From positions 1 to 32,072 of the IMG/VR virus record IMGVR_UViG_3300019487_000073: a stretch of 32,072 bases of DNA. One strand, 5' to 3'. Positions 1-32,072 of the stretch are shown here, one piece after another. The position numbers and the translations under genes were made by a program. The notes beneath the pieces were generated by a model, which saw only the letters and a list, made by a program, of their open reading frames with translations, had not been told where the DNA came from and did no database searches. Position 1 is the stretch's first letter; every line of letters starts with the position of its first letter. Origin of the DNA: a virus.

Positions 1-2
1 AT

Positions 3-350
3 GATTCCGGTAGTGGCGGGAGTGGTGATGTCACTATCATTTCGCCTCTGCCATTACCAGTTTCTACAAAGAATGACTTAACACCACTTTCTCCTATGGC
101 TGCAATAGTAGGAACTTCTAGTTCACAAGTAGTTGCAGCCAATGCAGATAGGACCAGTTTGAGATTGATAAATACTTCGACCAATCGAATTTCACTTGGA
201 TTTGGTTTTCCTGCTGTATTGGATAGTGGATTAACTTTATTTCCAAATGGTGGCACGTTTAACATGGATGAATATGATTATGATACTAGTGCAGTGAATG
301 CAATTGCATCTGCTGCTGGAAGTAATCTAGCTATACAAGAATATGAATAA
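3..350 (+). CDS. Partial virion protein, Gly/Ser linker plus beta-rich domain (5' end outside window)
   Basis: The frame is open from base 3 to the stop at 348-350, so the start lies upstream; the ATG at 96 is an internal Met and not the start. The 115 visible residues begin with a Gly/Ser-rich linker (DSGSGGSGD), then a Pro/Ser stretch, then a compact domain rich in Thr, Asn, Gly and hydrophobics (LINTSTNRISLGFGF). Such a linker-plus-domain layout is typical of phage fibre or head-decoration proteins, and the Gly-rich protein at 19073 has a similar style. It is followed by more small beta-rich proteins on the same strand. Role as a virion surface protein is inferred; no family was recognised. 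Confidence 0.75.
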   Translation, partial: DSGSGGSGDVTIISPLPLPVSTKNDLTPLSPMAAIVGTSSSQVVAANADRTSLRLINTSTNRISLGFGFPAVLDSGLTLFPNGGTFNMDEYDYDTSAVNAIASAAGSNLAIQEYE

Positions 351-646
351 TGGCTGTAATTAATCCCAGTTCATCTATTGTTGATGTAAAGCAGACTGAA
401 GTTGATTTTGGCGCGTTGCCTTCTTTCCAGCAAATATTTATTGTAACTGATTCCGATGTAACTCCAACGTCTCAATTAATAGGAACTGTAGCATACGAAG
501 CACCTACTGGAAAAGATTTAGATGAAATGGAGATGGATGATATTGATATTAAATTTGGTCCTGGAAGTGGTCAGTTCGATGTAATAGTAACTGGAATGGA
601 AGGTTACTTGGAAGGTAATTTTAAGATAAATTATCTAGTTGGCTAA
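350..646 (+). CDS. Small beta-rich virion protein, unknown family
   Basis: 98 residues. The ATG overlaps the TAA of the previous gene (TAATG), which points to coupled translation. The chain alternates short hydrophobic runs (QQIFIVTD, LIGTVAY, FDVIVTG, FKINYLVG) with acidic turns (DLDEMEMDDIDI), as in an all-beta sandwich. It has no signal peptide or membrane segment. Its neighbours are all fibre- or decoration-like, so a surface or fibre-attachment role is likely but unproven. Confidence 0.75.
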   Translation: MAVINPSSSIVDVKQTEVDFGALPSFQQIFIVTDSDVTPTSQLIGTVAYEAPTGKDLDEMEMDDIDIKFGPGSGQFDVIVTGMEGYLEGNFKINYLVG

Positions 647-1612: not shown

Positions 1613-2131
1613 ATGGCATCACATAGAATGTCAATTCTTGGTAACGAGCGCCCTGATTCAGGTGTTCTCCTAGATTTGATTTCAAATCAGATTACTGCAG
1701 CAACTGCGCCATCGATTGGTAATAATCTAGCATGGGTAATGAATGATGCTGGTGCTGATGAAGGAATATATGGCACTTTTGATATTCCTGAGAATTACGT
1801 TGGTTCACCAACAATTATTGTAAAAGCTGTTCTTGACGGCGCCCCAGGCGCTGCAGATACATTAGGATATGGATTCAGAAAGCGTGCAAATGCTGATAAT
1901 GAAGTTGCAGATGGAACTTTTGATGCTGAGCAGACAATATCTTCAACAATAGGTTCAAATGGTGGTGGCTATAGTAATGAAGATGAATGTAATCTCACAA
2001 TTACATTAACTGCTGGAGATTATGCTGTTGGGGACCAAGTAGAGTTTTATCTGTATATTGATGCAAGTGGAACATCATATGCAGGGAATGTACTTTTGCG
2101 TGATGCTATTTTTCGGTATTCGGATGTATGA
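1613..2131 (+). CDS. Beta-rich virion protein, unknown family
   Basis: 172 residues, rich in Gly, Ala, Thr and Asp. Beta-type stretches such as SPTIIVKAVLDG, CNLTITLTAGDY and QVEFYLYIDASG suggest a jelly-roll or carbohydrate-binding-type fold. There is no signal peptide, and a single Cys is seen (residue ~126). Its stop overlaps the next gene's start (ATGA-type), which encodes a LamG domain; the two may form parts of one fibre. Receptor or glycan binding is inferred only from this pairing. Confidence 0.75.
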   Translation: MASHRMSILGNERPDSGVLLDLISNQITAATAPSIGNNLAWVMNDAGADEGIYGTFDIPENYVGSPTIIVKAVLDGAPGAADTLGYGFRKRANADNEVADGTFDAEQTISSTIGSNGGGYSNEDECNLTITLTAGDYAVGDQVEFYLYIDASGTSYAGNVLLRDAIFRYSDV

Positions 2132-2844
2132 TGGCGACACTTTTTAATGCAACTGCGGAGACCTTTGGACGAACAGCTAACTTACCATCTATTTCTTCGT
2201 TCACAGTAATGGGGTGGATTTATCTAGTTAGTGATGTCAATAATCAAGTTGGAATGTTCAGGTTTGGTAATTCAGGCCCCGATTTGAACTATGAGCTTGT
2301 TACACTTAGTGATGGAACCACACTTTCTACCTGGAATGGGGCTGTAGGAGCTAGTTCTGTATCAGGATCAGCGCTTTCCTTAGCTACGTGGTATCATGTT
2401 GCCATAACTGTTTCTGGCACGGGTGCTGGACAATTCTTAGCGTATCTTAATGGAGTTCTGGATATTACTAATAATGGAGATGCAACTAACACAGCTGTTC
2501 AATTGGACATTTCTCAAGATATAGGGTCAAGTAAAAATATCCGTATCGCAGCGGTTAAAGTCTGGAGTGCAGCGTTATCGGCTACTGATATAATCTCAGA
2601 AATGAGACAGTACGCACCAGTACGCTGGTCTGATCTTAATGCTTGGTATCCAATGCTTAATGCAGCAACAGATAATAATGATTTTAGTGGGAACGCTAAT
2701 AACCTGACTATTACTAATGGTTCTCCAACAACAGCAGAAGGGCCTCCACTCCCTTGGATGCGTTACAAAAATCGAAAAGCTTCATTCACAACAGCAGCAA
2801 CAAATCGAGGATGGTATATCAGTTCAGCTGGTGGTTGGTGGTAG
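2128..2844 (+). CDS. LamG/concanavalin A-like lectin domain protein
   Basis: 238 residues. The first ~165 residues have the hallmarks of a laminin-G/ConA-like jelly roll: FTVMGWIYL, then LATWYHVAITVSG, an AYLNGV turn, and IRIAAVKVWSAALSATDI near the end of the domain. These match the order seen in LamG domains of phage fibres (edge strand, W-Y-H-V, L-N-G, K-V-W-A-L). The tail (about 180-238) carries DNNDFSGNANNLT and ends GGWW. The start is ATG 2128, overlapping the previous stop, with a second ATG at 2131. Likely binds host surface glycans as a fibre or decoration protein. Confidence 0.8.
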   Translation: MMATLFNATAETFGRTANLPSISSFTVMGWIYLVSDVNNQVGMFRFGNSGPDLNYELVTLSDGTTLSTWNGAVGASSVSGSALSLATWYHVAITVSGTGAGQFLAYLNGVLDITNNGDATNTAVQLDISQDIGSSKNIRIAAVKVWSAALSATDIISEMRQYAPVRWSDLNAWYPMLNAATDNNDFSGNANNLTITNGSPTTAEGPPLPWMRYKNRKASFTTAATNRGWYISSAGGWW

Positions 2845-2856
2845 GTAAGGAAATTT

Positions 2857-3036
2857 ATGACAACAACATTTTGGATGGTATATCAGGGAACTAGTATCAA
2901 TAATGTGGTTGCATTGTTTAGACAACAGAATGATGCCAATACCTATGCAGCTACTAATCCTGAATATGTTGTAGTGAGGGCAGAAATTGAAGTCCCTTTT
3001 AATGCGTATCCTGCGCAACTAGTAACACCAGTATAA
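2857..3036 (+). CDS. Small hypothetical protein, 59 aa
   Basis: ATG at 2857 to TAA at 3034-3036 encodes 59 residues starting MTTTFWMVYQGTS and ending QLVTPV. An AAGGA sequence at 2847-2851 lies at good distance from the ATG, and the frame fills an otherwise empty 214-base gap between genes, which supports it being real. It is hydrophilic to mildly hydrophobic with no recognised motif. It probably belongs to the fibre block. Confidence 0.65.
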   Translation: MTTTFWMVYQGTSINNVVALFRQQNDANTYAATNPEYVVVRAEIEVPFNAYPAQLVTPV

Positions 3037-3058
3037 TAGTAGTGAGTAATTTGGAACA

Positions 3059-3295
3059 ATGGAATGGGCTTCCCTAGGAGTTCTATTATCACTTTGTGTA
3101 TTTGTTGCGACAGTGATATATAACACTGGAAAGGTTGCATCGCGCGTGGAAGCATTAGAAAAATGGCGCTGGACCATGCGCGAGGATATGCATGAGATTT
3201 CAGATATTCTAACTAGGATGCAAAATGAATTACATCGTCTCACTACTCTAATAGAGGAAAGAACGGAAAGACGAGGGGATAGACGAAATGACTAA
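3059..3295 (+). CDS. Membrane protein, one TM helix plus coiled coil (lysis-associated candidate)
   Basis: 78 residues. An N-terminal transmembrane helix (about 4-21, LGVLLSLCVFVATVIY) is followed by a charged helical stretch with heptad-like spacing (VEALEKWRWTMREDMHEISDIL and on). The N-terminus is acidic and the first residues after the helix are basic. By the positive-inside rule this places the C-terminus in the cytoplasm, which argues against an i-spanin. The layout recalls small holin-associated proteins. It overlaps the next gene, a holin candidate, by 8 nt. A role in lysis is inferred from topology and pairing. Confidence 0.65.
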   Translation: MEWASLGVLLSLCVFVATVIYNTGKVASRVEALEKWRWTMREDMHEISDILTRMQNELHRLTTLIEERTERRGDRRND

Positions 3296-3512
3296 CAAAC
3301 AAACAGGTTATTTAGTATTTCTAGCATCAGTTGGTATGATGTTGGGATTGCTAGCACTTGATGTTCAGAAATTAACTACATGGACTGATGTAACTACTCC
3401 GCAGTTCATCGCGGAATTAATGGGTCATCTCGCGTCAGTTATTGCAGCTTTCGTTGGAGGCAAATTAATTCCAACTGAACCTACTAATCAAAGGTCTGAT
3501 GATGCCTCTTGA
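3288..3512 (+). CDS. Putative holin, two TM helices
   Basis: 74 residues with two likely membrane helices (about 8-25, YLVFLASVGMMLGLLAL, and about 44-60, MGHLASVIAAFVGGKLI). They are joined by a short polar loop, and the tail is hydrophilic (PTEPTNQRSDDAS). Both ends should be cytoplasmic, as in class II holins. A strong GAGGGG site lies upstream at 3276-3281. Holins make inner-membrane holes that time lysis. The endolysin candidate is far away (21333), so the usual holin-lysin cassette is split. No sequence family was recognised. Confidence 0.6.
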   Translation: MTNKQTGYLVFLASVGMMLGLLALDVQKLTTWTDVTTPQFIAELMGHLASVIAAFVGGKLIPTEPTNQRSDDAS

Positions 3513-3705
3513 ATTTGATGATGCAATCAATAAACATCTCGATGACAATGCTGAGAATTCCCTTGAAGCAACTGTTAGCAAGGATGGAGTAGGCGCCGAA
3601 ATCAAACGAACTTGGAATAATGGTTGGGGAATTGCAGCATATATAAAGAGTAAATGGAGTAAGAAAGAAACTGAAGCTGGTGCAAAAATTACTAAGACTT
3701 GGTGA
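3499..3705 (+). CDS. Small hypothetical protein upstream of terminase
   Basis: 68 residues; starts ATG 3499 (or the adjacent ATG 3502) with AAGG at 3491-3494 upstream and overlaps the holin candidate's end. Composition is charged, with Lys/Trp-rich repeats at the C-terminus (IKRTWNNGW, IKSKWSKKE, ITKTW). Its place just before TerL is where a small terminase subunit often lies, but it is too short and has no helix-turn-helix that I can see. Function unknown. Confidence 0.6.
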   Translation: MMPLEFDDAINKHLDDNAENSLEATVSKDGVGAEIKRTWNNGWGIAAYIKSKWSKKETEAGAKITKTW

Positions 3706-3723
3706 ATTAAGACTTGGCAATAA

Positions 3724-5346
3724 ATGACTACTGGCAATAAGGAATGGCGCCCAACTAAAAAGCAGGAAGTATTGGTATCTCTACCTGATACTATTCTTGA
3801 AGCTTTCTATGCAGGTGCTGTGGGTGCAGGTAAAACTGATATACTTCTTCTGCTTCCATTCCTTAAAGGTTGGCATAGAAAAGCAGGATTCAAAGCTCTA
3901 TTTTTGCGGCGCACTTTCACTGAATTGAAAAACGAAGTTATTCCAAGAACTCAAACTGGTAATATTCGATTCGACCAATTTGGTGGTAAATATAATACCA
4001 ATGATAAAGTATGGACATTTCCAGAATTCGGTTCATACTTTTTCTTTGGCCATTGTGAAAATGAAAAGGATGTATACAATTATGATTCAATGCAGCCTAA
4101 TTGTGTTCTATTTGATGAGTTAACTTCATTTCTTGAATTCCAATATCTTTATATTACTCTTACTCGTGTTCGTTCTATTCTTGGAAGTGGATTACCAGCA
4201 GTAGTAAGAAGTGCAAGTAACCCAGGTAACATTGGACATAATTGGGTTAGACAAAGATTCATTGACCCCGCACCAAAAGGATTCAAATTAATTAGAGGCA
4301 AAAGTGGAATTAAAAGAATTTTCATTCCTGCTACAGTTAATGACAATCCTCATATCGACCCAGTATATAGACAGTCACTTGAGGCATTGCCTGAAGCAGA
4401 GAAACAAGCTAAACTATATGGTAATTGGTCTGCATTTGAAGGTTCAGTATTCAGTGAATTCAGAGAGAAACATTATCCTGATGAACCAGAGAATGCTCTC
4501 CACATAGTTAAGCCATTTGATATTCCAGCGTTTTGGCCACGTATTGTTACAATCGATTGGGGCTATGCTCCTCCAGCAATGACCTATGTCGGTTATGGTG
4601 CAATTTCACCAAGCAAAAGAATTTACTTCTATAGAGAACAATCTTGGCAAAAGACATCTATAGAAGAATGGGGTGGACACGTTAAAGCATTTATTGATAG
4701 AGAAAATCCTCGCATCATTCGAGTTTGTAAAAGCGCGGGGCAACATCGTGGACAGAAAACTATTCAGGAACAAATTGAAGAAGCACTGAATAGACAAATT
4801 GAACTGACTGATAATTCACCAGGAAGTCGAGTAGCAACTAAACTGGTATTGCATGAATACCTAAGGTGGAAACAGAAGTTTGTTCCAGTTAATGAAGTTC
4901 CAATTTACGATGAAGAAAAAGCTCAGTGGATTCTACGTAACAAAGGATTAGAATCCTATAAACTTTATTTATCGATATTTGACCAAATTGAAGAGGAACA
5001 GAATCTTCCCAAGTTACTTATATTTGAACAGTCACCCGAAGGAAATGAAATCAAATTACTACCAAATGCAATCAAGACATGCGTATATGATAAGACGCAC
5101 ACACAGGACGTTGCAGAATTCCCAGGTGACGATGCTTACGATGTTATTCGTTATATGGTTGAATGTGCTGATAACTATTTTGGTGAAGCTGAGTCTGAGT
5201 TTAAGAAAGTTCAAAAACAGCAAGAACTTATTGATAAACTTACAAGAGACCAAGACTGGACAGCATTCTATCGAAATTCATTAGTAGTTGAATCTCAAAC
5301 GAAGATTCAACCGATTAATCGTTATCATAGGAAGAGAATTCACTAA
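3724..5346 (+). CDS. terL: Terminase large subunit (DNA packaging ATPase/nuclease)
   Basis: 540 residues, normal length for TerL. The ATPase domain has Walker A GAVGAGKT (31-38), Walker B CVLFDE (127-132) and the coupling motif SNPGN (165-169). The C-terminal RNase H-like nuclease starts with IDWGY (Asp278) and ends with the acidic cluster FPGDDAYDVIRY (469-473). TerL docks on the portal, pumps DNA into the prohead and cuts the concatemer. One oddity: where many relatives have Asp-Pro-Ser/Ala in the second nuclease strand, this protein reads RVCKSAGQ (332-340), so the usual acid is not there. No convincing small subunit is seen nearby. The Shine-Dalgarno is weak. Confidence 0.95.
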   Translation: MTTGNKEWRPTKKQEVLVSLPDTILEAFYAGAVGAGKTDILLLLPFLKGWHRKAGFKALFLRRTFTELKNEVIPRTQTGNIRFDQFGGKYNTNDKVWTFPEFGSYFFFGHCENEKDVYNYDSMQPNCVLFDELTSFLEFQYLYITLTRVRSILGSGLPAVVRSASNPGNIGHNWVRQRFIDPAPKGFKLIRGKSGIKRIFIPATVNDNPHIDPVYRQSLEALPEAEKQAKLYGNWSAFEGSVFSEFREKHYPDEPENALHIVKPFDIPAFWPRIVTIDWGYAPPAMTYVGYGAISPSKRIYFYREQSWQKTSIEEWGGHVKAFIDRENPRIIRVCKSAGQHRGQKTIQEQIEEALNRQIELTDNSPGSRVATKLVLHEYLRWKQKFVPVNEVPIYDEEKAQWILRNKGLESYKLYLSIFDQIEEEQNLPKLLIFEQSPEGNEIKLLPNAIKTCVYDKTHTQDVAEFPGDDAYDVIRYMVECADNYFGEAESEFKKVQKQQELIDKLTRDQDWTAFYRNSLVVESQTKIQPINRYHRKRIH

Positions 5347-5807
5347 TGGCTCCAAAATTTAAATTATTTGATCCCTCGCGGTTGAACTTAGAACAGCAAC
5401 GGGATTTTGCTGCGCTAACAAGAAATACTGGAGGTAATTTCACTAATCTTGGTGGTGAAGAAGGATTAATGAAAAGGTATGGACAGCGTTCTCCACTTCC
5501 TATTGCTGGTGGTGGAATTAGTATTGGCGGGCCAACAAATCTTCCTCCAATGCTAATGAGTGACCCTATTAGTCCAACAGGACCATTTAATAAACCTCCA
5601 ATGCCAATGGCTGGACCAATATCTCCTACTGGTCCATTAAATAAACCCCCAATGAGTGGACCTATTAGTCCAATAGGGCCGACAAATAAACCACCTATTA
5701 ATCCCATTAGTCCAACAGGACCATTTAATAAACCTCCTATAAAACGTAAAGTTCCCTCTGTAGGTAGTCCTTCTAGTAGAATGATGAATAAGATGGGAGT
5801 AAGATAA
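5346..5807 (+). CDS. Pro/Gly-rich tandem-repeat protein
   Basis: 153 residues. A short N-terminal segment (1-45, KFKLFDPSRLNLEQQRDFAA) leads into a region (about 60-135) of imperfect repeats of the type GPISPTGPFNKPPM, four to five copies of 14-17 residues with small inserts. A basic tail (KRKVPSVGSPSSRMMNKMGVR) closes the protein. The start overlaps the terL stop (TAATG). The repeats should form an extended, PPII-like or disordered rod with regular Asn-Lys charges. Not recognised; a virion-internal or linker protein is possible since it sits between TerL and portal. Confidence 0.8.
   Translation: MAPKFKLFDPSRLNLEQQRDFAALTRNTGGNFTNLGGEEGLMKRYGQRSPLPIAGGGISIGGPTNLPPMLMSDPISPTGPFNKPPMPMAGPISPTGPLNKPPMSGPISPIGPTNKPPINPISPTGPFNKPPIKRKVPSVGSPSSRMMNKMGVR
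5568..5737 (+). repeat. Direct repeats within the Pro-rich gene
   Basis: A 32-base unit is identical at 5568-5599 and 5706-5737 (starts ATTAGTCCAACAGG, ends AAACCTCC). Diverged copies lie between them, near 5617 and 5661. The spacing keeps the reading frame, so copy number can change by recombination without breaking the gene. Confidence 0.85.
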
Positions 5808-5995
5808 TGGCAGGTGATCCTTCTGCTGGTTTTCTGGAACGTATTTTTAAGAAGAAAAGGAAGACAGATATTGAACTTCCTAATGAATCTGGTATGGTAG
5901 ATAAAAGAATTCCTGATATTCCTGGAGCATTTTCAAAGGCTGCTAAGAATTTTAAGGAATATCAGCGGAAGAAGATTCTTTCTAGAAAAAACTAA
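5807..5995 (+). CDS. Small basic protein, shares N-terminal tag with next gene
   Basis: 62 residues, strongly basic (FLERIFKKKRKTD; KNFKEYQRKKILSRKN). A GGGAG lies just upstream of the ATG. The N-terminus (MAGDPSAGFLERIFKKK) resembles that of the next gene (MPAEPTSASLARLLRKP): small residues with Asp/Glu-Pro-Ser/Thr, then Leu-x-Arg and Lys/Arg, followed by a later ELP. This suggests a shared targeting or docking peptide. Function unknown. Confidence 0.7.
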   Translation: MAGDPSAGFLERIFKKKRKTDIELPNESGMVDKRIPDIPGAFSKAAKNFKEYQRKKILSRKN

Positions 5996-6471
5996 TGCCT
6001 GCTGAACCTACTTCTGCTTCGCTAGCACGATTACTACGGAAACCACCTAAAGTGGAACGGAAAGAGTTGCCTACGAAAGGAATTGACCCTACTTGGTTGT
6101 CACAAGGTTTTGAAGGAATCATGGATATTATTCGTGGTTCATTAGGTGGTGGAACTGGAAATAAAATGAATCTAGTAGGAGAAATGCTTGGTATGGCAGT
6201 TCCTGTTAGTAAAACACTTAAAGGCGGTATAAGTAGAATGAAAGGATTACCCGCGCAATTTACTCCTTCTCCAGGAGAATATGATGAAGCTGGTAGACTT
6301 CTTTCATTAGGTCCATCAGCTCCTTCTGAATATCTTTCTGGAGTTAAAAGAATAGAAGGACCACAAATAGATTGGGCTGAAGAACAATTTAGAAAAGCTA
6401 CTAGGCGTAATCCTATTTCTGCTCCTGAAGGATATCAGCAGGAACAATTTAGGAAAGCGGTGAAGCGATGA
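5995..6471 (+). CDS. Hypothetical protein with Gly-rich hydrophobic middle
   Basis: 158 residues; the start overlaps the previous stop (TAATG). The N-terminal tag resembles that of the 5807 gene. Residues about 40-85 are Gly/hydrophobic (GIMDIIRGSLGGG, LVGEMLGMAVPVSK). The C-terminus repeats the motif EEQFRKATRR / QEQFRKAVKR, about 22 residues apart. The amphipathic, glycine-rich character is like that of proteins ejected with phage DNA, but this is inference. Its stop overlaps the start of the next gene (ATGA). Confidence 0.7.
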   Translation: MPAEPTSASLARLLRKPPKVERKELPTKGIDPTWLSQGFEGIMDIIRGSLGGGTGNKMNLVGEMLGMAVPVSKTLKGGISRMKGLPAQFTPSPGEYDEAGRLLSLGPSAPSEYLSGVKRIEGPQIDWAEEQFRKATRRNPISAPEGYQQEQFRKAVKR

Positions 6472-6815
6472 TTAAATGGATTCATCATTTACTTAATCCT
6501 CATTGTGAACATTGTATTGAAGAGAAACTTGAAAGTTCTATTTGTAAAAGCTGTGAGACTTTGAAATCAATACTAGAAATTTCAAATCATGAAAAACAGA
6601 AATTACTTGAAAGACTTCTTGAAAAACCTGAAACAGAACTGGTTAAAGAGAAGATTGAAATAACTGCTCCTAAATTAATGAATTGGAAAGTTAGGCAGCA
6701 AATGCTAGAAGCTGAAGATAGGAAACGTGCTCAGTTATTACGGGACTACAAGAAAACTGAGGAATTAGAAAGTCAAGTTTTGGATAACAAAGAAGAGGAA
6801 AAAGTAAATGGTTAA
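6468..6815 (+). CDS. Zinc-knuckle-like small protein with coiled coil
   Basis: 115 residues. The N-terminus has HCEHC (13-17) and, about 10 residues on, CKSC (27-30), a likely zinc-binding pair. A long charged helix follows (LERLLEKPETELVKEK; AEDRKRAQLLRDYKKTEEL). I recall proteins of this layout next to portal genes in other uncultured phages, but their role is not known to me. It begins at ATG 6468 inside the previous stop and ends overlapping the next start by 8 nt. Confidence 0.75.
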   Translation: MIKWIHHLLNPHCEHCIEEKLESSICKSCETLKSILEISNHEKQKLLERLLEKPETELVKEKIEITAPKLMNWKVRQQMLEAEDRKRAQLLRDYKKTEELESQVLDNKEEEKVNG

Positions 6816-7035
6816 CCATACTCTTACAATTACTGGAACAACTGGGCCAGACCAAGATGTAACTACACTTTTATTTGAATATGTTACTGATTTGAATTTT
6901 GATTTGGTGCGAGGGGTTCTCACTGTTTTCTATAATAAAAATGGCACCATTCTTAATCAGGCGTTTGATTACACTCTTGTTACTACTGTTACTTGGACTA
7001 TCACTTCTGGTATGACTGCTGTTGTGGTTTCATAA
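6808..7035 (+). CDS. Small beta-rich hypothetical protein
   Basis: 75 residues, rich in Thr, Val and Asn, with alternating hydrophobic residues (LTITGTTG, FDLVRGVLTVFYNKNG, VTTVTWTITSGMTAVVVS) that fit a small beta barrel or sandwich. GAGGAAAAAG precedes the ATG at good spacing. No Cys and no signal. Likely a minor virion protein by context; not recognised. Confidence 0.7.
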   Translation: MVNHTLTITGTTGPDQDVTTLLFEYVTDLNFDLVRGVLTVFYNKNGTILNQAFDYTLVTTVTWTITSGMTAVVVS

Positions 7036-7040
7036 GTGGT

Positions 7041-7061
7041 TTCCTAAGTAAGAATTAGGAG
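7041..7061 (+). promoter_or_regulatory. Hairpin covering the Shine-Dalgarno of the 7072 gene
   Basis: TTCCTAA (7041-7047) pairs with TTAGGAG (7055-7061): six Watson-Crick pairs plus one T-G, with a 7-base loop. The AGGAG of the ribosome binding site for the ATG at 7072 is wholly inside the 3' arm. This could lower translation of the downstream gene unless ribosomes leaving the 6808 gene (stop at 7035) open it. Seen in sequence; regulation is inferred. Confidence 0.5.
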
Positions 7062-7071
7062 ATAAATAGAA

Positions 7072-7224
7072 ATGCCAGTTAAATCAGCTAAGCAATTTCG
7101 ACTGATGCAAGCTGCAAAACATGGTTCACTAAAAGCAGGCGGCCCAAGTAAAGAAGTTGCTGAAAAGTTTTTGAGGAAGACTAGTGAAAAACAGAAATCT
7201 AAATTTGCTCGTTCTAATTATTGA
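7072..7224 (+). CDS. DUF3008-like small phage protein
   Basis: 50 residues, MPVKSAKQFRLMQAAKHG to FARSNY. Strong AGGAG upstream (7057-7061). The pattern MP-x-K-S-x-x-Q-x-R-x-M near the start and P-S-K-E-V-A-E-K-F later matches the small DUF3008-type proteins found beside phage head genes. Their function is not established. It lies directly before the portal gene. Highly basic. Confidence 0.75.
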   Translation: MPVKSAKQFRLMQAAKHGSLKAGGPSKEVAEKFLRKTSEKQKSKFARSNY

Positions 7225-7230
7225 TTAATA

Positions 7231-10678: not shown

Positions 10679-10707
10679 CTCATAAGGGCTAGGGAAATGG
10701 AAAAATT

Positions 10708-20266: not shown

Positions 20267-20268
20267 AA

Positions 20269-21680: not shown

Positions 21681-21695
21681 GTAGGAGATAAAATT

Positions 21696-22769: not shown

Positions 22770-22776
22770 GTGACTT

Positions 22777-23709: not shown

Positions 23710-23711
23710 TT

Positions 23712-26408
23712 ATGCCAGGCCAATTAGCAACTCTTATTAGAAATAAATATCCAGGTCAGTACGATGACATGGATGATGCTACGTTAGAGTCTTCTATATT
23801 AGCTAAGTATCCTGATTATGCTGATTTGGTAGAAGAAACTCCTACTCCTGTTCCTGCTCCGGTGGGGGCACCAGCACCAGTAGTAGCACCAGCAAGACCA
23901 GACCCAAACAAATTTGTAAATACTCAAATGGCTAGTGCAGAAGATTATGAACCGACTCTTTCATCTTCACTTCAAAAAGGACAATTAGGTAGTTTTCTTG
24001 CAACACAAGCAGGTAGATTTTGGAAAGGAATTAATGAACCATTTGATTTTGCAAAGCCAATAATAGAATCTGCTACCAAGTTTGGTCCTGACCCTAAAAC
24101 ATCAATGGGCCAAATTTATAAAGAATCAATTGGTAGTGCATTCAGTCCATTAGGAATTGGAAGTGAATTGCTTGGTGCTGTTGGATTATTGGGTAAGTAT
24201 GGTAGAGGTGGGAGACTCCCTCAAATTGCTGATGAAGTTGTTTCTGGAGCTGTTAGTCCAAAAACAAAGGAATTGGATCTCAGTATAGTTGGGGAATTTG
24301 ATCCTGAATATACTAAAAATGTTCTTAATGAAGCAGGAGTTGGAAAGCCGGGATTATCTGAAACCGTTCGCCCTGGGGGCTTTTTTTCTGAAGAAGCAGA
24401 AACTTGGGGCAGCCGTTCAATTACTTATAGAGACCCCCAAGGGAATCCCATAGCAACTGCTAAAATAATGCAAACTCCGGACGGACAATGGTTAGTAGAT
24501 GAATTCGCTGCTGATAAGACAAAAGGATTGCTATATGGAAGAGCTGTTAAATCAGTAGGTGAAAAATTAATGGAATTGGGCGCTACGAAACCCGCATCGG
24601 TAGTAACTCCAAGTTCATTTAATATAATGAAACGTGCTGGACTTATTGATGAAGCTATTGATATTGCTCCAATTAAAGCTGCTCCTGAAATACCAGTTAC
24701 TCCAGAGTTACCTTCAGTAGCACCAACTACAATTGGACCAGAACTGCCAATTGGGCCAGTAACATCACAGTTACCAATTAAACCAGAAATTCCAGAACCA
24801 ATAGCTAAACTACTTGGAGCATTAGAAGAGTCAAAACCATTAACAAAAGAACAGGCTAAAATCTATTCAACAGAAAGAGGGCAACGGGTAGCAAAGGCAG
24901 AAGCAATTGAAACTAAGGGATTGGCAGGGCATTATGAAAAATTAGGTCAATTGGCTGGAGAGCATACTAAAGTTTCAATGGAACCCCTTAAATTAGAGCA
25001 ACCAGATATTGATGCTTTGGCTGATATAATTGAAAATACTAAAACACTACAATTTTATGAGAGAAGAAAGGCTACTGATGGATTGGTTAAGATATTAGCA
25101 GGAAGAGTTCCACAGGATAATGAAATTCGTCTTCTTGGAGAAGTATTTGGTCCAGATGTAATTAATAATATTCGAGCAAAACTTCCTAAGATTGATACAA
25201 AGAGAACACTTCTTAGTGAAGCTGCAAATTTTCCTCGCGCCATCCAGTCTTCATGGGATATTTCATTTCCATTCAGACAGGGGTTACCACTAATTCATAC
25301 CAAAGCATGGTGGACTAGTTGGGATGATATGCTTAAGTCATTTGGAAGTGAAAAAGCATATCGTGGTGTGATGGATTCTATATTGGACCATCCTAATTTT
25401 CAAGGTGGAATGAGTCCCACTGGAAAGAATCTTCCATCATTTGCTGAAGAATCCGGATTGAAATTGTCTGACCTAACTGATTTGAGTAAACGTGAAGAAG
25501 CAATTATGTCTACTTGGGCAGAAAAGATTCCTGGAGTGCGTAGAAGTAATAGAGCATATACTGCATTTGCAAATAAACTTAGGGCTGATAATTTTAATTC
25601 GATGATTACGGATGCTGAGAGACTTTATGAATCAACTAAAGCATTAGCAAAGAATCCTGCCGAATTAGCACAAGCTGAGAAATTAAATCCAAGGACTAAT
25701 CTAGCACTAAGCAAGGAAATTGCAGGTTACATTAATAATGCATCAGGTCGGGGTGATTTAGGTAAATTGGAAAGGCATGCTCAATTATTGAATAGTACTT
25801 TGTTTAGTCCGCGCCTCATTGCTAGCAGAGTTCAAATGATGAATCCTCTTAATTATATATCTAAATCTCCACAAGTTAGGCAGGCTTATTTGAAATCTCT
25901 ATTGGCTACTGCTGGAGCATGGATGACTGTAGCAGGATTAGGTAAAGCTGCGGGTGGTGACGTTAGTCTATCACCAATGAGTTCTGATTTTGGTAAGGTT
26001 AGAATTGGTAACGCGCGGCTAGACCCTGCTGGGGGATTTCAACAATATTTAGTTCTTTTGAGTCGTCTTGCTAGTGGTCAAACTACATCTTCTACTACAG
26101 GAGTAACAAGTGAATTAGGTGGCAGTTTTGCTGCACCTACAAGGAAAGATATTATGGAAAGATTTGGTAAAGGTAAGTTAGTTCCGCCGCTGACGTTTGC
26201 ATATGATATGTTGAATGCTAGTAAGTATAGACCATTTAACGCTGCTGATAGAACTGCTCAATTGTTTATTCCAATGATTGCCCAAGATGCTATTGAAATT
26301 GCAAAGGAGGACCCCTCGTTACTACCATTTCTTCTGCCTCTTACTGCTATTGGAATGGGCACTCAAGTTTATGGTGAAAGACCTGAAGCATTATTGTTTG
26401 AGCAGTGA
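23712..26408 (+). CDS. Large internal virion protein with GNAT-like segment and polyvalent-type C-terminus
   Basis: 898 residues. Residues 10-40 carry a KYPGQYDDMDD / AKYPDYADL repeat known from phage internal proteins. Pro/Ala linkers lie at about 41-64 and 318-365. Residues about 190-311 resemble an acetyltransferase fold: antiparallel strands (SITYRDPQGNPIATAKI), a KGLLYGRAVKSVGEKL turn-helix and a SSFNIMKRAG end. The last ~400 residues (FSPRLIASRV, SSDFGKVRIGNARLDPAGGFQQY) match a domain that I know from very large phage 'polyvalent' proteins. Hydrophobic helices at about 727-745 and 868-885 may insert in the host membrane. Likely ejected with the genome; last gene of the late strand. Confidence 0.7.
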   Translation: MPGQLATLIRNKYPGQYDDMDDATLESSILAKYPDYADLVEETPTPVPAPVGAPAPVVAPARPDPNKFVNTQMASAEDYEPTLSSSLQKGQLGSFLATQAGRFWKGINEPFDFAKPIIESATKFGPDPKTSMGQIYKESIGSAFSPLGIGSELLGAVGLLGKYGRGGRLPQIADEVVSGAVSPKTKELDLSIVGEFDPEYTKNVLNEAGVGKPGLSETVRPGGFFSEEAETWGSRSITYRDPQGNPIATAKIMQTPDGQWLVDEFAADKTKGLLYGRAVKSVGEKLMELGATKPASVVTPSSFNIMKRAGLIDEAIDIAPIKAAPEIPVTPELPSVAPTTIGPELPIGPVTSQLPIKPEIPEPIAKLLGALEESKPLTKEQAKIYSTERGQRVAKAEAIETKGLAGHYEKLGQLAGEHTKVSMEPLKLEQPDIDALADIIENTKTLQFYERRKATDGLVKILAGRVPQDNEIRLLGEVFGPDVINNIRAKLPKIDTKRTLLSEAANFPRAIQSSWDISFPFRQGLPLIHTKAWWTSWDDMLKSFGSEKAYRGVMDSILDHPNFQGGMSPTGKNLPSFAEESGLKLSDLTDLSKREEAIMSTWAEKIPGVRRSNRAYTAFANKLRADNFNSMITDAERLYESTKALAKNPAELAQAEKLNPRTNLALSKEIAGYINNASGRGDLGKLERHAQLLNSTLFSPRLIASRVQMMNPLNYISKSPQVRQAYLKSLLATAGAWMTVAGLGKAAGGDVSLSPMSSDFGKVRIGNARLDPAGGFQQYLVLLSRLASGQTTSSTTGVTSELGGSFAAPTRKDIMERFGKGKLVPPLTFAYDMLNASKYRPFNAADRTAQLFIPMIAQDAIEIAKEDPSLLPFLLPLTAIGMGTQVYGERPEALLFEQ

Positions 26409-26750
26409 TTCCAATTGAGGGGGTTCAAACGAATCCCCTTTAACTGTTTTTCCATTTATCTTTTCAGTAGATTTAGTCATGTTGCTTCGATGAACTTCTG
26501 CAAAAATTTCATCCATTGGTATTCCATAGGACAGTGCTGTTCCAAATACTACATAAAGTAAATCCGCGAGGCCATCTGCAATAAGAGTCTTGTCAGCAGT
26601 ATACATTGCATTTCTTAGTTCATTCCATTCCTCTTGTATAAGCCTTACCCTCAATTCATATACTTCTTGGGGGAGCCATCCAATTGGTCTATTTGCAATG
26701 AAATGACCATACTTCTTATGGAATTCCCTAAGGGCAATCATATAATTCAT
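26391..26750 (-). CDS. MazG-like NTP pyrophosphohydrolase
   Basis: 119 residues from the ATG at 26750, preferred over the upstream ATG at 26771 because GAGGAAAAG lies just before it. Motifs of the all-alpha MazG/PRA-PH group are clear: EEWNE (Glu47, Glu48, Glu51 counted from 26771) and D-x-x-x-D in ADGLADLLYVVFG (Asp66, Asp70), with VHRSNMTKS near the end. These residues bind Mg2+ and hydrolyse nucleoside triphosphates or similar. In phages, such enzymes may adjust nucleotide pools or (p)ppGpp. Last gene of the replication operon; its end overlaps the late gene's end by 18 nt on the opposite strand. Confidence 0.85.
   Translation of the reverse strand: MNYMIALREFHKKYGHFIANRPIGWLPQEVYELRVRLIQEEWNELRNAMYTADKTLIADGLADLLYVVFGTALSYGIPMDEIFAEVHRSNMTKSTEKINGKTVKGDSFEPPQLESLLKQ
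26418..26451 (+). terminator. Rho-independent-like terminator of the late operon
   Basis: AGGGGGTTC (26418-26426) pairs with GAATCCCCT (26431-26439), nine pairs with one G-T, around an AAAC loop. It begins 10 nt after the stop of the 23712 gene. T-rich DNA follows (TTTAACTGTTTTT to 26451). It works only for + transcripts; on the - strand the flank is not T-rich. The hairpin lies inside the coding end of the MazG-like gene (residues Lys-Gly-Asp-Ser-Phe-Glu-Pro-Pro). Confidence 0.65.
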
Positions 26751-26973
26751 TTCTTCTTTTCCTCGTTTCATATGGTGGAATTGTTATATACTGTTCAAAT
26801 CTACTACCATCAAAACAAGTCCATCTAATTCTAACTATCTCAGTTTCAAACGCTGTTATTGGAATAATAATGCGATTTCTCAAATACTTTTTTTCGTCTT
26901 CTTTCTTTTTCTTCAGTATCCCTGGCGCATTCAATTTCATCCCTGCAAATATGATCTTTAAAAGTTGAATCAT
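26728..26973 (-). CDS. Small basic hypothetical protein
   Basis: 81 residues, basic (LKKKKEDEKKYLRNR near residues 20-34), then beta-like VRIRWTCFDGSRFEQYITIPP. A TGAGGT lies before the ATG at 26973. It overlaps the downstream MazG-like gene by 23 nt and follows the glycosidase gene by 19 nt. No family recognised. The in-frame Met12 is a less likely start. Confidence 0.55.
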   Translation of the reverse strand: MIQLLKIIFAGMKLNAPGILKKKKEDEKKYLRNRIIIPITAFETEIVRIRWTCFDGSRFEQYITIPPYETRKRRNELYDCP

Positions 26974-26992
26974 ATCTTACCTCAGGTTCATA

Positions 26993-28216
26993 TCATTTGG
27001 CTTCATTTCTAAAAGGGCAGCAATTAATCTCTGTCTCATTCCATAGGACTGAAAAATTCCCCGCAGAAGTATGATAGAAATAACCACAACAAGTTCCTTC
27101 TGCTGTCACTGCCATCTGTCTTGATATGTCTAAGTCACTCATATATATCTGACCATTATATTGATTGGGACCACCGAACTTATCAGGTTCCCCAGAGAGA
27201 ATTGCCATTCCTTTCTTTATATAATTGGGATGGTCTAATACACACTGGTCCTTAACTCTTTTCACATCTTTCCGGGGAACATGAAAATCATGAAAATCCC
27301 AATAGGGTGGTGGAGTTAATTGACTTCCATATTTATCATTATAACTACCTGAACTAAATGCAATTCCAGTAGGCCGGGTGAATGCAAGAGGATTAGCTGT
27401 TGCATTTGTTCCAGTATATGGTTCATTTACTAGTTCCCCAATCGTATTATTTCTGGTCTTTAATTGGGCTACTACTTCATTAAAGAAATTGATTTGTTCT
27501 CCTGCATTCGGCATAACCACGCGGGTGTCAGCAAATACAGTCCAGTATACATACAATCCTTCAAATGCGCATGAGTCAAGGAATGCTGGCATAGCATCTA
27601 GGTATGCTTGAACTCCGTATTTCTGCGGGGTATAATCAAACCATGAAACCATTCCAATTACTCTTACTGCATTGCAACCATTTTCTTTTCTCTGTCTAAG
27701 TAGGAATGTAATATCATGGCCCTCAAGAAACCATTTGAATAGCATGAAATCAGTGGTTCCCTGGATGTAAACCTTTTGGCCTAACTCATTATAGAAATAT
27801 CTACCAGAAATATGAAGTCTAGGTAGGTCATGAATTGGATTTAAGTCTACTATATTTAGTCTCTCTTTATCTCCCTGAGTATTCTTAGTAGCTTCCATGT
27901 GTTCATTAACTTCATCTAATCCCATGAAATTTCCATGAACAGATTTGTAGCCATCTTCATTTATTTTATACCATCTTTCCCATAAACCCCTAGAAGTTCT
28001 ATTAGTTGAAATATCTCCATTATCTTCTGCTGTAACGTAATTACCATTATTTGTTTTTAATGAAACTGCACCATCTTCAAATGGTTCTTCTACAAATTGT
28101 TCCCATCCCAGAGGAGTTGTTCTATTTGCAATAAGTGAACCAGGCCCAATATAACCACCGCCACCTTCCGCAGAAACAAACTTACCGTTACTTGCTATTA
28201 TATTGATTAGTCTCAT
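26993..28216 (-). CDS. GH5-like glycoside hydrolase with N-terminal fascin-type beta-trefoil
   Basis: 407 residues; start ATG 28216 has a strong GGAGAAC site. Residues ~1-112 hold fascin/beta-trefoil repeats (NGKFVSAEGG, NGNYVTAEDNG, ANRTTPLGWEQF, NRTSRGLWERW), a sugar-binding fold. Residues ~130-390 fit a clan A TIM barrel: VYIQGTTDFMLFKWF, NAVRVIGM, acid/base VNEP (Glu265), HDFH (309-312), and a second Glu in LSGEP (Glu343). Such enzymes cut beta-glucans, mannans or related polymers. No signal peptide; two CC pairs. It lies in the replication operon rather than with virion genes, so it may be an auxiliary gene released at lysis, or a virion enzyme. Confidence 0.8.
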   Translation of the reverse strand: MRLINIIASNGKFVSAEGGGGYIGPGSLIANRTTPLGWEQFVEEPFEDGAVSLKTNNGNYVTAEDNGDISTNRTSRGLWERWYKINEDGYKSVHGNFMGLDEVNEHMEATKNTQGDKERLNIVDLNPIHDLPRLHISGRYFYNELGQKVYIQGTTDFMLFKWFLEGHDITFLLRQRKENGCNAVRVIGMVSWFDYTPQKYGVQAYLDAMPAFLDSCAFEGLYVYWTVFADTRVVMPNAGEQINFFNEVVAQLKTRNNTIGELVNEPYTGTNATANPLAFTRPTGIAFSSGSYNDKYGSQLTPPPYWDFHDFHVPRKDVKRVKDQCVLDHPNYIKKGMAILSGEPDKFGGPNQYNGQIYMSDLDISRQMAVTAEGTCCGYFYHTSAGNFSVLWNETEINCCPFRNEAK

Positions 28217-28406
28217 TTAGTTGTTCTCCTCTATTTTTCCACTCAGTAAATGAGCGCCCTATAGCACAGCAAACATTTCTATCTTCTCCATTTATTTCAA
28301 ACCATAAATCATCACCATATCCATTGTCATCATCGTCATGACAAGATTCACAACACGATTCATATGTAACTTCTTTAAATTGTTCTTTTACTTTATTACA
28401 TTCCAT
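28188..28406 (-). CDS. Small Cys-rich, Asp-rich putative metal-binding protein
   Basis: 72 residues from ATG 28406 (TTG 28409 also in frame). It has CCESCHDDDDNGYGDDLW and NVCCAIGRSF: at least five Cys plus a His in two clusters, consistent with zinc binding. The ATG overlaps the stop of the helicase gene (TGATG), with GAGGGG upstream. Its end overlaps the glycosidase start by 29 nt. Similar short Cys-rich proteins occur in phage early regions, often as host-takeover factors, but no function can be assigned. Confidence 0.75.
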   Translation of the reverse strand: MECNKVKEQFKEVTYESCCESCHDDDDNGYGDDLWFEINGEDRNVCCAIGRSFTEWKNRGEQLNETNQYNSK

Positions 28407-29668
28407 CAATTTTTCCCCTCAAGAAAGTCTCTCATCTTATTTACTTGTTCATCAGGCATAACGTAAACTATTTGGTTACCATGAGTTTCAATTACAATTA
28501 ATCCTGCAGTATCAAATCCTTTCATGATTAAATCCCATTCATCTACAGTGGCATGCATCCAGAATTGTTTATTCAATTGCGCGCGGCTCATAGCATGATT
28601 ACTTCTCTTCATTAATTCTTCAATGACTATAGTTTTCTGCATTGCATAACTACTCTTACCTTTCTTTCCCATTGTAGTCTTTCTTACATTTCCAATTAAT
28701 TTCTCACACTGACCTATTGCTTCGACTAATGAATCTTTGTCTATAATTAGTTCGGGGCGCTTGGACAGACTAATTAGCATCGCGACTTTCAATACCGCGT
28801 CACCAAATCGATTTACTGTTCCAGTTTCGTCCTTCATTCCTTCAGTTGCTTCACTAAATTGCTGATACCAATCATTATACATCTTGCCTACGGGAGACAG
28901 AAATACAATATCAGGTCCCATACGATGCTCAATAGTATGAATATCACTCCTTTCTCTACTTCCTAATGGTTGGAATTCACCTTTTAATTTAGCTAATTCT
29001 CTTAAGTAAAGAGCGAGCCCATCCTTATCTAATTTTTCTTTGGGTGGAACCACAAGTGAATTGATATTTTGTCTTTTCGTTTCGTGTATAATGAAAGTCC
29101 TTGCATAGAATCCACCTTGTATATCTCTCTTAGTGAAAAAATCTTCATTATGGGCTTCATTAGTTGCAGTGAACATTATTACTGTTGGGTCCTTTAACTG
29201 GAATGATTCCATTTTCAACAATGATTTCCAGTCTCCATTATTATAATGTCTATCATATAAATCAGTTAAAATGGTTGCTGCTACCTTATCTTCGACTATA
29301 GAGGAACTAAGCTCAGAAGAAATAATAGCTACATGGGATTTAGTTTCAATTTTTCCTCCCGGTTTAGTTTCTCCGGTTCCCATTTCTTTTAGGATACCTT
29401 GAATTGAACTTCTTCCGGAGATGACTTTAATATTATTCACACGAGATATAAGGTCTTTAGCAAGGTTAATTGGTGGACCTTTCTTAAGACCACTATCTGC
29501 ATGTAACATTACATAGATATTTGGGTAAAGGTTATACAATCCTGCGCGGTTAATCCATATATTATCTTTAACTACTGCTGAAATAGTTACTAATGCAGAC
29601 CAATACCAAAATGAAATTGGACTTTCTAATTCCTTGGTTGGGCCTAGAATATTATCTAGGAATGTCAT
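28406..29668 (-). CDS. DUF3987-like replication helicase/ATPase
   Basis: 420 residues. It opens like DUF3987 phage proteins: ELESPISFWYWSAL, then LYNLYPNIYVMLHADSG (44-60). The P-loop is degenerate (DSGLKKGPP, Lys63), the Walker B-like strand reads VAIISSELS (113-121) without the usual Asp, and sensor 1 is TATN (167-170), followed by GGFYAR (Arg190, possible Arg finger). A winged-helix-like C-terminus (MSRAQLNKQFW, GLIVIETHGNQIVYV) follows. These proteins are thought to act as replicative helicase/primase-type ATPases. ATGA overlap with the upstream Cys-rich gene and proximity to DNA polymerase fit a replisome role. Confidence 0.8.
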   Translation of the reverse strand: MTFLDNILGPTKELESPISFWYWSALVTISAVVKDNIWINRAGLYNLYPNIYVMLHADSGLKKGPPINLAKDLISRVNNIKVISGRSSIQGILKEMGTGETKPGGKIETKSHVAIISSELSSSIVEDKVAATILTDLYDRHYNNGDWKSLLKMESFQLKDPTVIMFTATNEAHNEDFFTKRDIQGGFYARTFIIHETKRQNINSLVVPPKEKLDKDGLALYLRELAKLKGEFQPLGSRERSDIHTIEHRMGPDIVFLSPVGKMYNDWYQQFSEATEGMKDETGTVNRFGDAVLKVAMLISLSKRPELIIDKDSLVEAIGQCEKLIGNVRKTTMGKKGKSSYAMQKTIVIEELMKRSNHAMSRAQLNKQFWMHATVDEWDLIMKGFDTAGLIVIETHGNQIVYVMPDEQVNKMRDFLEGKN

Positions 29669-29859
29669 TTCCTTTCCAATTCATAAAGTTTCTTAATTAG
29701 TTCATGCACTCTTTCGTATTCATAATTCACAAAAGTAGGTGCTAATATTACTAGTAATTCAATTCCTGTTTCATAGTCTATTGTAATTCCGTGACATGGA
29801 CATTCACAACGCCCACAGAATTCATGTATATTACTTGAGCAATCATCACTAGTATTCAT
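29665..29859 (-). CDS. Small Cys-rich putative zinc protein
   Basis: 64 residues. CGRCECPCHG near residues 15-24 gives a dense Cys/His cluster after a first Cys at residue 7. The second half is an acidic helix (YEYERVHELIKKLYELERK). It overlaps the polymerase stop and the helicase start by 4 nt each (ATGA), so the three are translationally coupled. It could be an accessory replication or DNA-binding factor; not recognised. Confidence 0.75.
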   Translation of the reverse strand: MNTSDDCSSNIHEFCGRCECPCHGITIDYETGIELLVILAPTFVNYEYERVHELIKKLYELERK

Positions 29860-32072
29860 GCTATTTCTCTTGAAATGAATTCACCACGAAACTTTTTTAA
29901 ATCCTTATAATTAAATCCAACTTCAGCTTCACTAGGAATTATAAGGGTTCTTCTGGATAGAGAACAGTTTTCAAATGATATAGGCCGTTCCATTTCAGTT
30001 GTACCAATCTTGACTGCTTCAAGTTGTTTCTCAATAGGAACTGATAATAATAGAGAATCGTGGGATTCCAATAGGATTCTAATCCAAGGGTATTTACTCC
30101 TAATTCGAAGAGCGGCAGCCTTTGTGTTATCAGAGACAGTTCTTTGTGGAATATATGAGAATGCCTCGCGAAATAATTCGTCGCCCCATCTCTCATAAAA
30201 AATCCTTTTCCCTCCAGTTGGAGATTCAATTCCATATGGTAGTGCCGCGATGAGCATTCTAGTCTTTCTTAATGCTTCTATAATTCCTGCATGAAATATC
30301 TTCTGAATCTTAGGTTGTTTCCGATGAAAAATTTCTAAGGCTTTACCTGCTTGTGCTTCTGTGACATTGATTGGGATTTTATACTTTCTAGCTTGCGTGT
30401 TGACTTCTGTTGCTGCTCTTCTTTTCCCTGCTCCTAGGTGTCCTGCGTGGCGTAATGTCTTCCCTGCAAATCTAATAGGACTTTCGTATCCAAGTTTCTT
30501 CTTCGAGTAATCATCTTCAGTCCCACCAAAAAACCAAGACGCAGTAAGGGCATGATAGTCATGAGTATCAATATCCTCTAAAGCCTGTTCATCATCTGCA
30601 AGTAGAAATACTACTCTTGCTTCTGCCTGGGATGAATCTAATTGAATTAGAATTTCACCTTCATCAGCAACTAATTGTGACCTTATATCCTCACCAATAT
30701 CACCATGTTTAGTCATGGTTTGAAACGCGAGACCCACTGCTTTCTTTTTCTTTTTCCCTTCATCATCTTTATATTCAAGAGTCGGACGTATTGGCTCTTC
30801 TAATAAGTTTGTTCCCGTCCGTCCAGTCTTAAGACACAAGAAATAAGAAGTCTTCATTCTGCCATCATAATCAGGGCGCGCCATTAAATAGGTTCCAATA
30901 GTCTTATCAACACGACGCCTATCCAGAATTGTTTCTAGGATTTTCTTTCTATCATTATTCTTTTCACTCTTAAGTAACTTGGTAATTACTTCTTCTCCGG
31001 TTCCTTCTCCATAGTTAGGAAGACCTAGTTCATCATAAAGAAGTTGGGAGACCTGCTTAGGTGAATTGACATTGACATATTTACCCGAGAGTTTCCACAT
31101 CTCATACTTAAGAGATTCACTCCAACTTATATACTTACATAGCAATTCATCGCGCTTGTCATAATCAATTCTAAATCCCTGATTCTCTATTTCTCCATAT
31201 AATGGGCTGAGTTTCATTAGGAAGTTTTCATAGAATGGGCGCATTCCTAATTCATCTAAATCTGCATCCATCGCGTCATCAACTTCTACTGTTACGCAAC
31301 TATCACGGGCACATCCAATTAATAAATCTTCTACTGAACCCTCATACATTCCCTCATCTTTGTAATAGGGTTCCTCTGTATAGAGACTAGTATTGAATCC
31401 TAAATTCTTAGGCAGTTCGGGATTAATTGCGAATGCCTTTAGCATTGTATCGCTGTATAATGAGCGAATAATGAATCCTAAACGCTTTAGTTTATCTCTA
31501 TCATAATTGAAGTTACTGCCGCGCACATCTGAATTAGCTAGCAAGTGAGATAGTAATACCCAACAATTAGCAATGTCACTATCTGGTAATGTGCTAATTG
31601 TTTCTCCTTGAATTGTATTCCAAAGAGGAACTGTCATTCCTTCGCTTTTAGTAAATGCAATACCTACACAGACAGGTAAACACAATCCACGAGCTTCAAT
31701 ATCTATTGCTGGTTTCTCGTATTTCTGATAGCGACTTATGAAGTCCGCTAATTGCGCTGATGATTTACATACACTTAATGAGCGGCTTGGCCTGCGAATT
31801 TCAGGAAAATAACTCTGAGTAACTGCCCGTTTCATATCGAATATCATTACTTGTCGCTGCCAGTATCCTAATGTTTCTCCGCCCATATGAAGTAAATGCG
31901 CGGGGTGATAAGTAGCAACTACCTTCTTACCCATGCCTAATAGAATAGAACCGCGATATTTTTCTATTTCTTTCTTACCAGTTAGTGCCCATAGCGCAGT
32001 TGCTCCTAGGGTTAGAATAAGGTTTGGATTAATCTGTTTTATTTCTTCTCTTAATTCATTCAACTGAGCATC
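29856..32072 (-). CDS. Uracil-DNA glycosylase / family A DNA polymerase fusion (5' end outside window)
   Basis: The frame is open to the window edge (GAT GCT CAG before the TTG at 32063), so the start lies outside. Numbered from that TTG: residues ~1-75 are the C-terminal half of a family 4-type UDG (LTLGATALWALTG, then ATYHPAHLL, HP-A at 53-55). A 3'-5' exonuclease follows with DIEARG (Asp121, Glu123) and NFNYD (Asn184-Asp188), but exo III lacks its Tyr (GCARD, Gly250-Asp254). The polymerase has TGRTG (413-417), motif A LDSSQAEAR (Asp476), motif B R-x3-K-x3-H (Arg531, Lys535, His539) and motif C SHDS (Asp669). No 5' nuclease domain; UDG takes that place. Confidence 0.9.
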   Translation of the reverse strand, partial: DAQLNELREEIKQINPNLILTLGATALWALTGKKEIEKYRGSILLGMGKKVVATYHPAHLLHMGGETLGYWQRQVMIFDMKRAVTQSYFPEIRRPSRSLSVCKSSAQLADFISRYQKYEKPAIDIEARGLCLPVCVGIAFTKSEGMTVPLWNTIQGETISTLPDSDIANCWVLLSHLLANSDVRGSNFNYDRDKLKRLGFIIRSLYSDTMLKAFAINPELPKNLGFNTSLYTEEPYYKDEGMYEGSVEDLLIGCARDSCVTVEVDDAMDADLDELGMRPFYENFLMKLSPLYGEIENQGFRIDYDKRDELLCKYISWSESLKYEMWKLSGKYVNVNSPKQVSQLLYDELGLPNYGEGTGEEVITKLLKSEKNNDRKKILETILDRRRVDKTIGTYLMARPDYDGRMKTSYFLCLKTGRTGTNLLEEPIRPTLEYKDDEGKKKKKAVGLAFQTMTKHGDIGEDIRSQLVADEGEILIQLDSSQAEARVVFLLADDEQALEDIDTHDYHALTASWFFGGTEDDYSKKKLGYESPIRFAGKTLRHAGHLGAGKRRAATEVNTQARKYKIPINVTEAQAGKALEIFHRKQPKIQKIFHAGIIEALRKTRMLIAALPYGIESPTGGKRIFYERWGDELFREAFSYIPQRTVSDNTKAAALRIRSKYPWIRILLESHDSLLLSVPIEKQLEAVKIGTTEMERPISFENCSLSRRTLIIPSEAEVGFNYKDLKKFRGEFISREIA

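Follow-up and report, generated by a model that had tools for sequence, protein, structure and literature searches.

Background

Why should the genome of a tailed phage do almost without two four-letter words? The window, by which we mean the whole stretch of 32,072 nucleotides analysed here (positions 1..32072, a virus record of its own, G000), has 17 GATC and 11 GTAC sites; it lacks about five-sixths of the GATC sites expected, and the loss of GTAC is equally large. An earlier note on this DNA, made from the letters alone, had seen the shortage of GATC and read it as escape from a GATC-cutting defence of the host. We think that the best account is selection by the hosts' orthodox Type II restriction enzymes, cutting GATC and, separately, GTAC, and we would give this reading a probability of about 0.84.

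The window is part of the genome, of about 45 kb, of a tailed soil phage from an uncultivated group; since the contigs of full-length relatives measure about 44-49 kb, roughly a quarter of its genome is absent. Its forward strand carries a terminase large subunit (3724..5346; PF03237, 3e-7; phrog_979, 1.5e-34), a portal-like protein named from position and size (7231..9537; cluster 5), a scaffold-like acidic protein named from its position between the portal-like and capsid genes (9509..10678; cluster 4), the major capsid protein (10708..11955; phrog_14242, 4e-7), a conserved protein of the structural block (15835..17340; cluster 10), an M15-type endolysin (21321..21680; PF13539, 2e-4; phrog_1768, 1e-6) and a large protein that ends this block (23712..26408; cluster 23); clusters 4 and 5 are present in 27/27 genomes. 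On the reverse strand lie a DUF3987-type primase (28406..29668; PF13148, 1e-6; phrog_14296, 6e-14) and a family A DNA polymerase with an N-terminal UDG-like domain, truncated by the end of the window (29856..32072; PF00476, 3e-22; PF03167, 1.5e-5; phrog_17, 6e-52). Between the structural and replication blocks, a reverse-strand ORF (26993-28216) combines an FRG1/DUF7910-like N-terminus with a GH5 cellulase-like domain. In the window, neither Rfam nor tRNA searches returned a match.

Results

Two palindromes are missing from the window

The 17 GATC positions listed in the earlier note are exact: 2366, 2632, 5370, 5816, 8413, 10274, 15841, 17233, 18120, 18213, 19455, 21856, 22407, 22440, 24276, 24300 and 26953 (a span of 2366..26956). 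Its GC estimate of about 36% was slightly low (we compute 38%), and its chance expectation of roughly 100 sites falls within the computed range of 93-125, namely 110 from base composition, 125 from a first-order and 93 from a second-order Markov model. Even against the lowest of these, the Poisson probability of the observed count is 4e-22, and in coding sequence 16 sites are observed against 102 +/- 6 under synonymous codon shuffling (z = -14.3). The Markov-corrected check that the note had proposed, with a ratio near 1 as the contrary outcome, gives 0.14-0.18, which is far from 1. The note was also right that GGCC, counted there at about 30, is near expectation (35 observed, 27-53 expected). 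The GATC-free stretch that it pointed out from 26957 to the end is indeed there, but such a terminal gap is not significant (P = 0.05), and the spacing of the sites along the window is uniform (KS p = 0.56).

What the note missed is that GTAC is equally scarce, with 11 sites (2090, 2610, 2620, 7846, 8798, 18507, 18916, 23621, 23759, 25795 and 30001; span 2090..30004) where 60-91 are expected: 60-80 from Markov models, and 90.5 ± 7.3 in coding sequence under the synonymous shuffle (z = -10.9), that is, a ratio of 0.12-0.18. GATC and GTAC are the two most depleted of the 256 tetramers in the window, and no further four-base palindrome comes near them, AGCT being next in the shuffle test at 0.64. 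Both words are under-represented after correction for composition (CB < 0.8); the elimination grade (CB < 0.1), which most relatives reach, lies beyond the window's 0.12-0.18. Words one step away are not depleted in the window (GACC 1.41, GATT 1.20, GATG 1.08, GTTC 1.50). A single enzyme of GWWC type was considered for both losses and rejected, as neither GAAC (0.98) nor GTTC (1.50) is depleted in the window.

Other biases of the window are mild: AAAA, TTTT and AGCT are low and CGCG is high. The excess of CGCG is 2.3-fold over the synonymous-shuffle expectation; it is also seen in G035, G024 and G022 and reaches 4-fold in relatives, yet the ratio is 0.36 in G012.

Sites are lost through synonymous codons

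For both words a synonymous escape exists in every reading frame, and the loss of sites is a matter of synonymous codon choice. The shift in Asp codons described in the earlier note is borne out by the counts: there are 13 GAT and 48 GAC codons before C, but 427 and 58, respectively, before other bases, so that GAT makes up 21% of the Asp codons before C and 88% elsewhere; likewise ATC is used for none of the 75 Ile codons that follow G, and GTA for 3 of the 94 Val codons that precede C. The same choices are more extreme in the 18 genomes from which GATC is nearly or fully eliminated (GAT at 1.5% of Asp before C vs 80.6% elsewhere; ATC at 0.2% of Ile after G vs 22.4% elsewhere) and in the 12 genomes purged of GTAC (GTA at 0.3% of Val before C vs 39% elsewhere; TAC at 0.3% of Tyr after G vs 29% elsewhere). 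In the seven genomes that keep GATC, GAT makes up 72% of Asp codons before C vs 78% elsewhere.

The residual sites of the window tell us something about its state. In coding sequence, 13 of the 16 GATC sites consist of an Asp GAT codon and the C after it, a context in which one C-to-T transition is enough to restore the site; for this reason we think that the window, which has about 16% of the expected GATC and GTAC, suggests a weakened or recently relaxed pressure. Incomplete purging would give a similar picture, and the relatives, with DNA identities of about 70%, lie too far away to tell the two apart. At the site of position 8413, in the portal-like gene, 41 aligned relatives have GACC and 19 share GATC with the window. 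The idea that the residual sites came in with recently imported DNA was rejected, because they are evenly spread and show no significant excess in unaligned parts (4 of the 17 lie in aligned sequence, where 6.2 are expected).

Avoidance switches on and off among relatives

A search with the major capsid protein found 229 relatives in IMG/VR and no match among 50,697 phage records; 82 loci were compared, and 26 relatives were fetched at length. GATC is nearly or fully gone from 18 of 27 complete or near-complete genomes and retained in seven. Ten genomes have no GATC at all (G013, G015, G023, G033, G039, G042, G043, G044, G025 and G018), with 107-266 sites expected from a first-order Markov model (146-212 for the first five, which are complete); among the remaining fetched relatives, eight have 1-11 sites, G006 has 33 and seven have 92-190. 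GTAC occurs 0-7 times in fourteen of the fetched relatives and 12 to 217 times in the other twelve. Relatives that keep GATC are still mildly low in it (0.74 of the shuffled expectation).

Among the loci with enough sequence the GATC ratio is bimodal, at most 0.05 in 40 of 72 and 0.4-0.9 in about 20. GATC is below 0.1 at 44 loci; GTAC is likewise below 0.1 at 30 of these and reaches 0.4 or more at 10; conversely, all 35 loci with GTAC below 0.1 show GATC below 0.4, which indicates that the near-complete loss of GTAC is nested within the depletion of GATC. On the capsid tree the minimum number of changes is 12 for GATC and 13 for GTAC, exact counts being soft as the tree comes from a quick search with some short loci; its well-supported branches force 7 GATC changes (shuffled mean 19.4). 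Which enzymes and hosts were involved, and in which direction each change went, is what we infer from these patterns. The window's nearest capsid relatives differ in state, L006 and L010 being partly purged and L026 and L059 having kept GATC.

Two further observations concern single members of the group. In L042, L045 and L003, GGCC is also low (0.14-0.31), perhaps a third four-base specificity. G042 (L139-L142) is a 62-kb contig in which the tail and replication modules occur twice, in copies 68-89% identical, with both parts free of GATC; it probably consists of two related phages joined during assembly.

Avoidance extends to longer palindromes

When the 27 genomes are pooled, 26% of the palindromic 6-mers that do not contain GATC or GTAC fall below 0.3 of the synonymous-shuffle expectation, vs 0.08% of non-palindromes. 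The losses are severe: GGGCCC occurs once where 42 are expected, GAGCTC 8 times vs 159, AGCGCT 6 vs 112, AGGCCT 6 vs 98 and CTCGAG 7 vs 106. Among palindromes containing four or more G/C, genomes range in ratio from 0.10 (G044) to about 1, with 0.76 in the window, which avoids six-base palindromes weakly (55 vs 72, P = 0.02). A phage lineage exposed to many Type II systems would be expected to carry such a trace. In plasmids, avoidance of 6-bp sites increases with host range (PMC10359461).

Gene content does not separate the two states

Avoiders and non-avoiders have the same core genes, and in the 27 genomes we found no gene cluster that every avoider has and every non-avoider lacks; the most avoider-biased clusters (34 and 37) belong to the tail block and occur in at most 6 of the 13 complete avoiders. 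As no gene divides the two sets, a difference between hosts is the simplest cause.

Methyltransferases of families PF02086 (D12) and PF01555 (N6/N4) are absent from all 46 records, the window being an incomplete genome, and a motif search found no catalytic methyltransferase motif in a plausible enzyme. Protection by a methyltransferase was also considered as the cause of the kept sites and rejected: none was found by family or motif, and there is one methyltransferase-like accessory match among non-avoiders. In the accessory genes of the latter, one protein matches the phrog_2675 model 'DNA methyltransferase'; Methyltransf_24 is also matched by one protein, which may be identical with the first; ten candidate accessory proteins checked singly did not include an identifiable source of the match. 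That a single such cluster, out of 133 scanned, should account for seven GATC-keeping genomes is improbable. Another accessory protein of the non-avoiders (alignment A2) matches the Acb2/Tad1 hairpin domain, a family that blocks signalling-based phage defences. A search of 27 virus records, some of them fragments, gave no tyrosine integrase.

The hosts

The only relative in a cellular genome, from one scan of a genome collection, is L158, a provirus-like locus with 45% capsid identity and 65% GC in an Acidobacteria MAG. It looks integrated in a bacterial genome, because its contig carries cellular genes on either side (urocanase, homoserine dehydrogenase, RecJ and TonB-type outer-membrane genes); a chimeric contig is also possible. 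GATC and GTAC have normal frequencies in L158 and its flanks (L167-L170, contig 36 of G046). Among 396 genomes of the same phylum there is no other with a capsid relative, and a comparison of window positions 12073-32072 with these genomes gave no spacer-grade match (best E 0.003 per genome, at chance). A DpnII-family gene is strong and full-length in 7 of the 396, with weaker partial matches in three more; GATC restriction genes thus exist in this phylum, which does not by itself tie the window to it.

A Bacteroidota-type host was also considered for the group and is unlikely: Bacteroidota use few Shine-Dalgarno-like motifs, and here such motifs precede 52% of core genes vs 11% background. 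In the window they lie upstream of 4 of 16 core genes vs about half in relatives, the numbers being small.

Discussion

If hosts' Type II enzymes are responsible, as we think, they would cut incoming unmethylated phage DNA at GATC and, separately, at GTAC, and in other members of the group at various six-base palindromes. Any synonymous mutation that removed a site would then raise the chance that such DNA survives, and GATC would be purged by using GAC for GAT before C and ATT or ATA for ATC after G, GTAC by using Val codons other than GTA before C and TAT for TAC after G; in a lineage that shifted to enzyme-free hosts, sites would drift back. Selection of this kind explains the specificity for palindromes, the multiple specificities, the synonymous route, the on and off states and the lack of self-methylation, although a methylase could lie in the absent part of the window's genome. 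The earlier idea of escape from a GATC-cutting defence stands in so far as the loss is palindrome-specific, synonymous and bimodal among relatives; GATC alone is insufficient, as at least two specificities are avoided. The note's further statement that the DNA is left unmodified at GATC goes beyond what a sequence can show.

The note had left the enzyme between MboI/DpnII and DpnI types, and the former is favoured only because GTAC and six-base palindromes accompany GATC. Cutting that depends on modification, by DpnI-like or Mrr-like enzymes or a phosphorothioate-linked system, would have the host mark GATC and enzymes directed by the mark then attack it, and the pattern of avoidance would be identical whichever methylation state is cut. 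Indeed, an Mrr of Haloferax cuts GATC-methylated DNA and has been invoked for the HF1-group viruses (PMC7230728). We consider this improbable here: GTAC would require a second system, no depletion is seen in the window for GAAC and GTTC (0.98 and 1.50), which a GWWC-type mark would also cover, and published avoidance concerns mainly orthodox Type II sites. GATC, a Type IIM site, is an exception to the latter, with CB<1 in every one of the 46 phages with a host that encodes a matching enzyme (PMC6286503).

Evasion of mismatch repair, in which Dam and MutH could not act on DNA devoid of GATC, as proposed for phiX174, also seems to us a poor candidate. It has in its favour that Aeromonas phage 1233, whose host genus is Dam+, is nearly free of GATC too, and that in phiX174, which has no GATC, added sites lower the mutation rate (PMC5014478). 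However, it predicts neither that the window, whose depletion is not confined to GATC, should have lost GTAC to the same extent, nor that relatives should have lost GGGCCC, GAGCTC, AGGCCT and other words; its contribution could extend to GATC alone.

It is very improbable that the phages themselves encode a nuclease that cuts host DNA at GATC and GTAC and therefore avoid these sites: HNH and endonuclease VII genes do occur among the group's accessory genes, but no cluster is universal in avoiders and missing from non-avoiders. A bias in mutation or codon pairs, acting without selection on the site, to which the mild biases in AAAA, TTTT, AGCT and CGCG might point, can practically be dismissed, since whole palindromes are lost in all frames beside normal neighbour words, the loss appears and disappears among relatives that have their genes in common, and zero sites against more than 200 expected are observed beside near-normal relatives.

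The earlier note had accepted that the same shortage of GATC in unrelated phages would speak against it. Such a shortage is present in two of eight control phages, Pelagibacter phage HTVC115P with no sites and Aeromonas phage 1233 with two, so GATC loss alone is not rare; GTAC loss is seen in none of the eight. What stands out in the present group is the pairing of GATC with GTAC, and the switching within one group. Two phages (L175 and L174) have peculiarities of their own: HTVC115P is devoid of GATC, ACGT and CGCG, and Roseobacter phage CRP-9 of CCGG and CGCG.

Returning to selection by Type II enzymes, a broader picture has in our opinion about even odds: avoidance of GATC, GTAC and many six-base palindromes would have been gained and lost repeatedly and partly independently, the missing words would record the recent restriction exposure of each lineage, and half-purged genomes such as the window would record ongoing changes of host or enzyme.

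Comparison with known systems

Escape from restriction by loss of sites is already known, and our findings fit this phenomenon, in a form that is unusually clear and switchable. The earlier examples that we found are surveys of single phages, or one group purged almost uniformly. Here, members of a group with common core genes cover the span between complete absence and near-normal numbers of GATC and GTAC, and the states change a dozen times or more on the tree. This amounts to a natural replicate design, which could address how quickly sites go and return, whether host switches can be predicted from restriction exposure, and whether the palindromes that a genome lacks help to assign hosts to uncultivated viruses.

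The dsDNA phages surveyed by Rusinov et al. 2018 (PMC6286503) resemble ours in having specifically lost short Type II palindromes, GATC being the classic case, and elimination there is found mainly in non-temperate phages; in our group, by contrast, the state differs repeatedly among close relatives, two four-base sites are involved, the window is only partly purged and the host and its enzyme are putative. The HF1-like haloviruses (PMC7230728) resemble our phages as a group without GATC that also lacks a second four-base palindrome and some 20 six-base palindromes, but they are archaeal, their second site is CTAG and not GTAC, and the isolates are uniform, whereas here the range extends from zero to near-normal. 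Nor does the window's capsid protein, with no match in the 50,697 phage records, give any sign of virion proteins homologous to theirs. In phiX174 (PMC5014478) GATC is absent and the link is to mismatch repair; this is, however, a small ssDNA phage for which the repair link was tested, and in our group GTAC is lost as well. Finally, the closest polymerases in the phage collection, at 24-25% identity, are those of Desulfofustis phage LS06-2018-MD01, Microcystis phage Mel-JY34 and phage ctMlz233, which share with the window the polymerase, an adjoining primase-type gene (DUF3987 in Mel-JY34) and an oppositely oriented structural block; unlike the window, each of them has an annotated DNA methyltransferase gene, and GATC and GTAC are not strongly depleted in their genomes.
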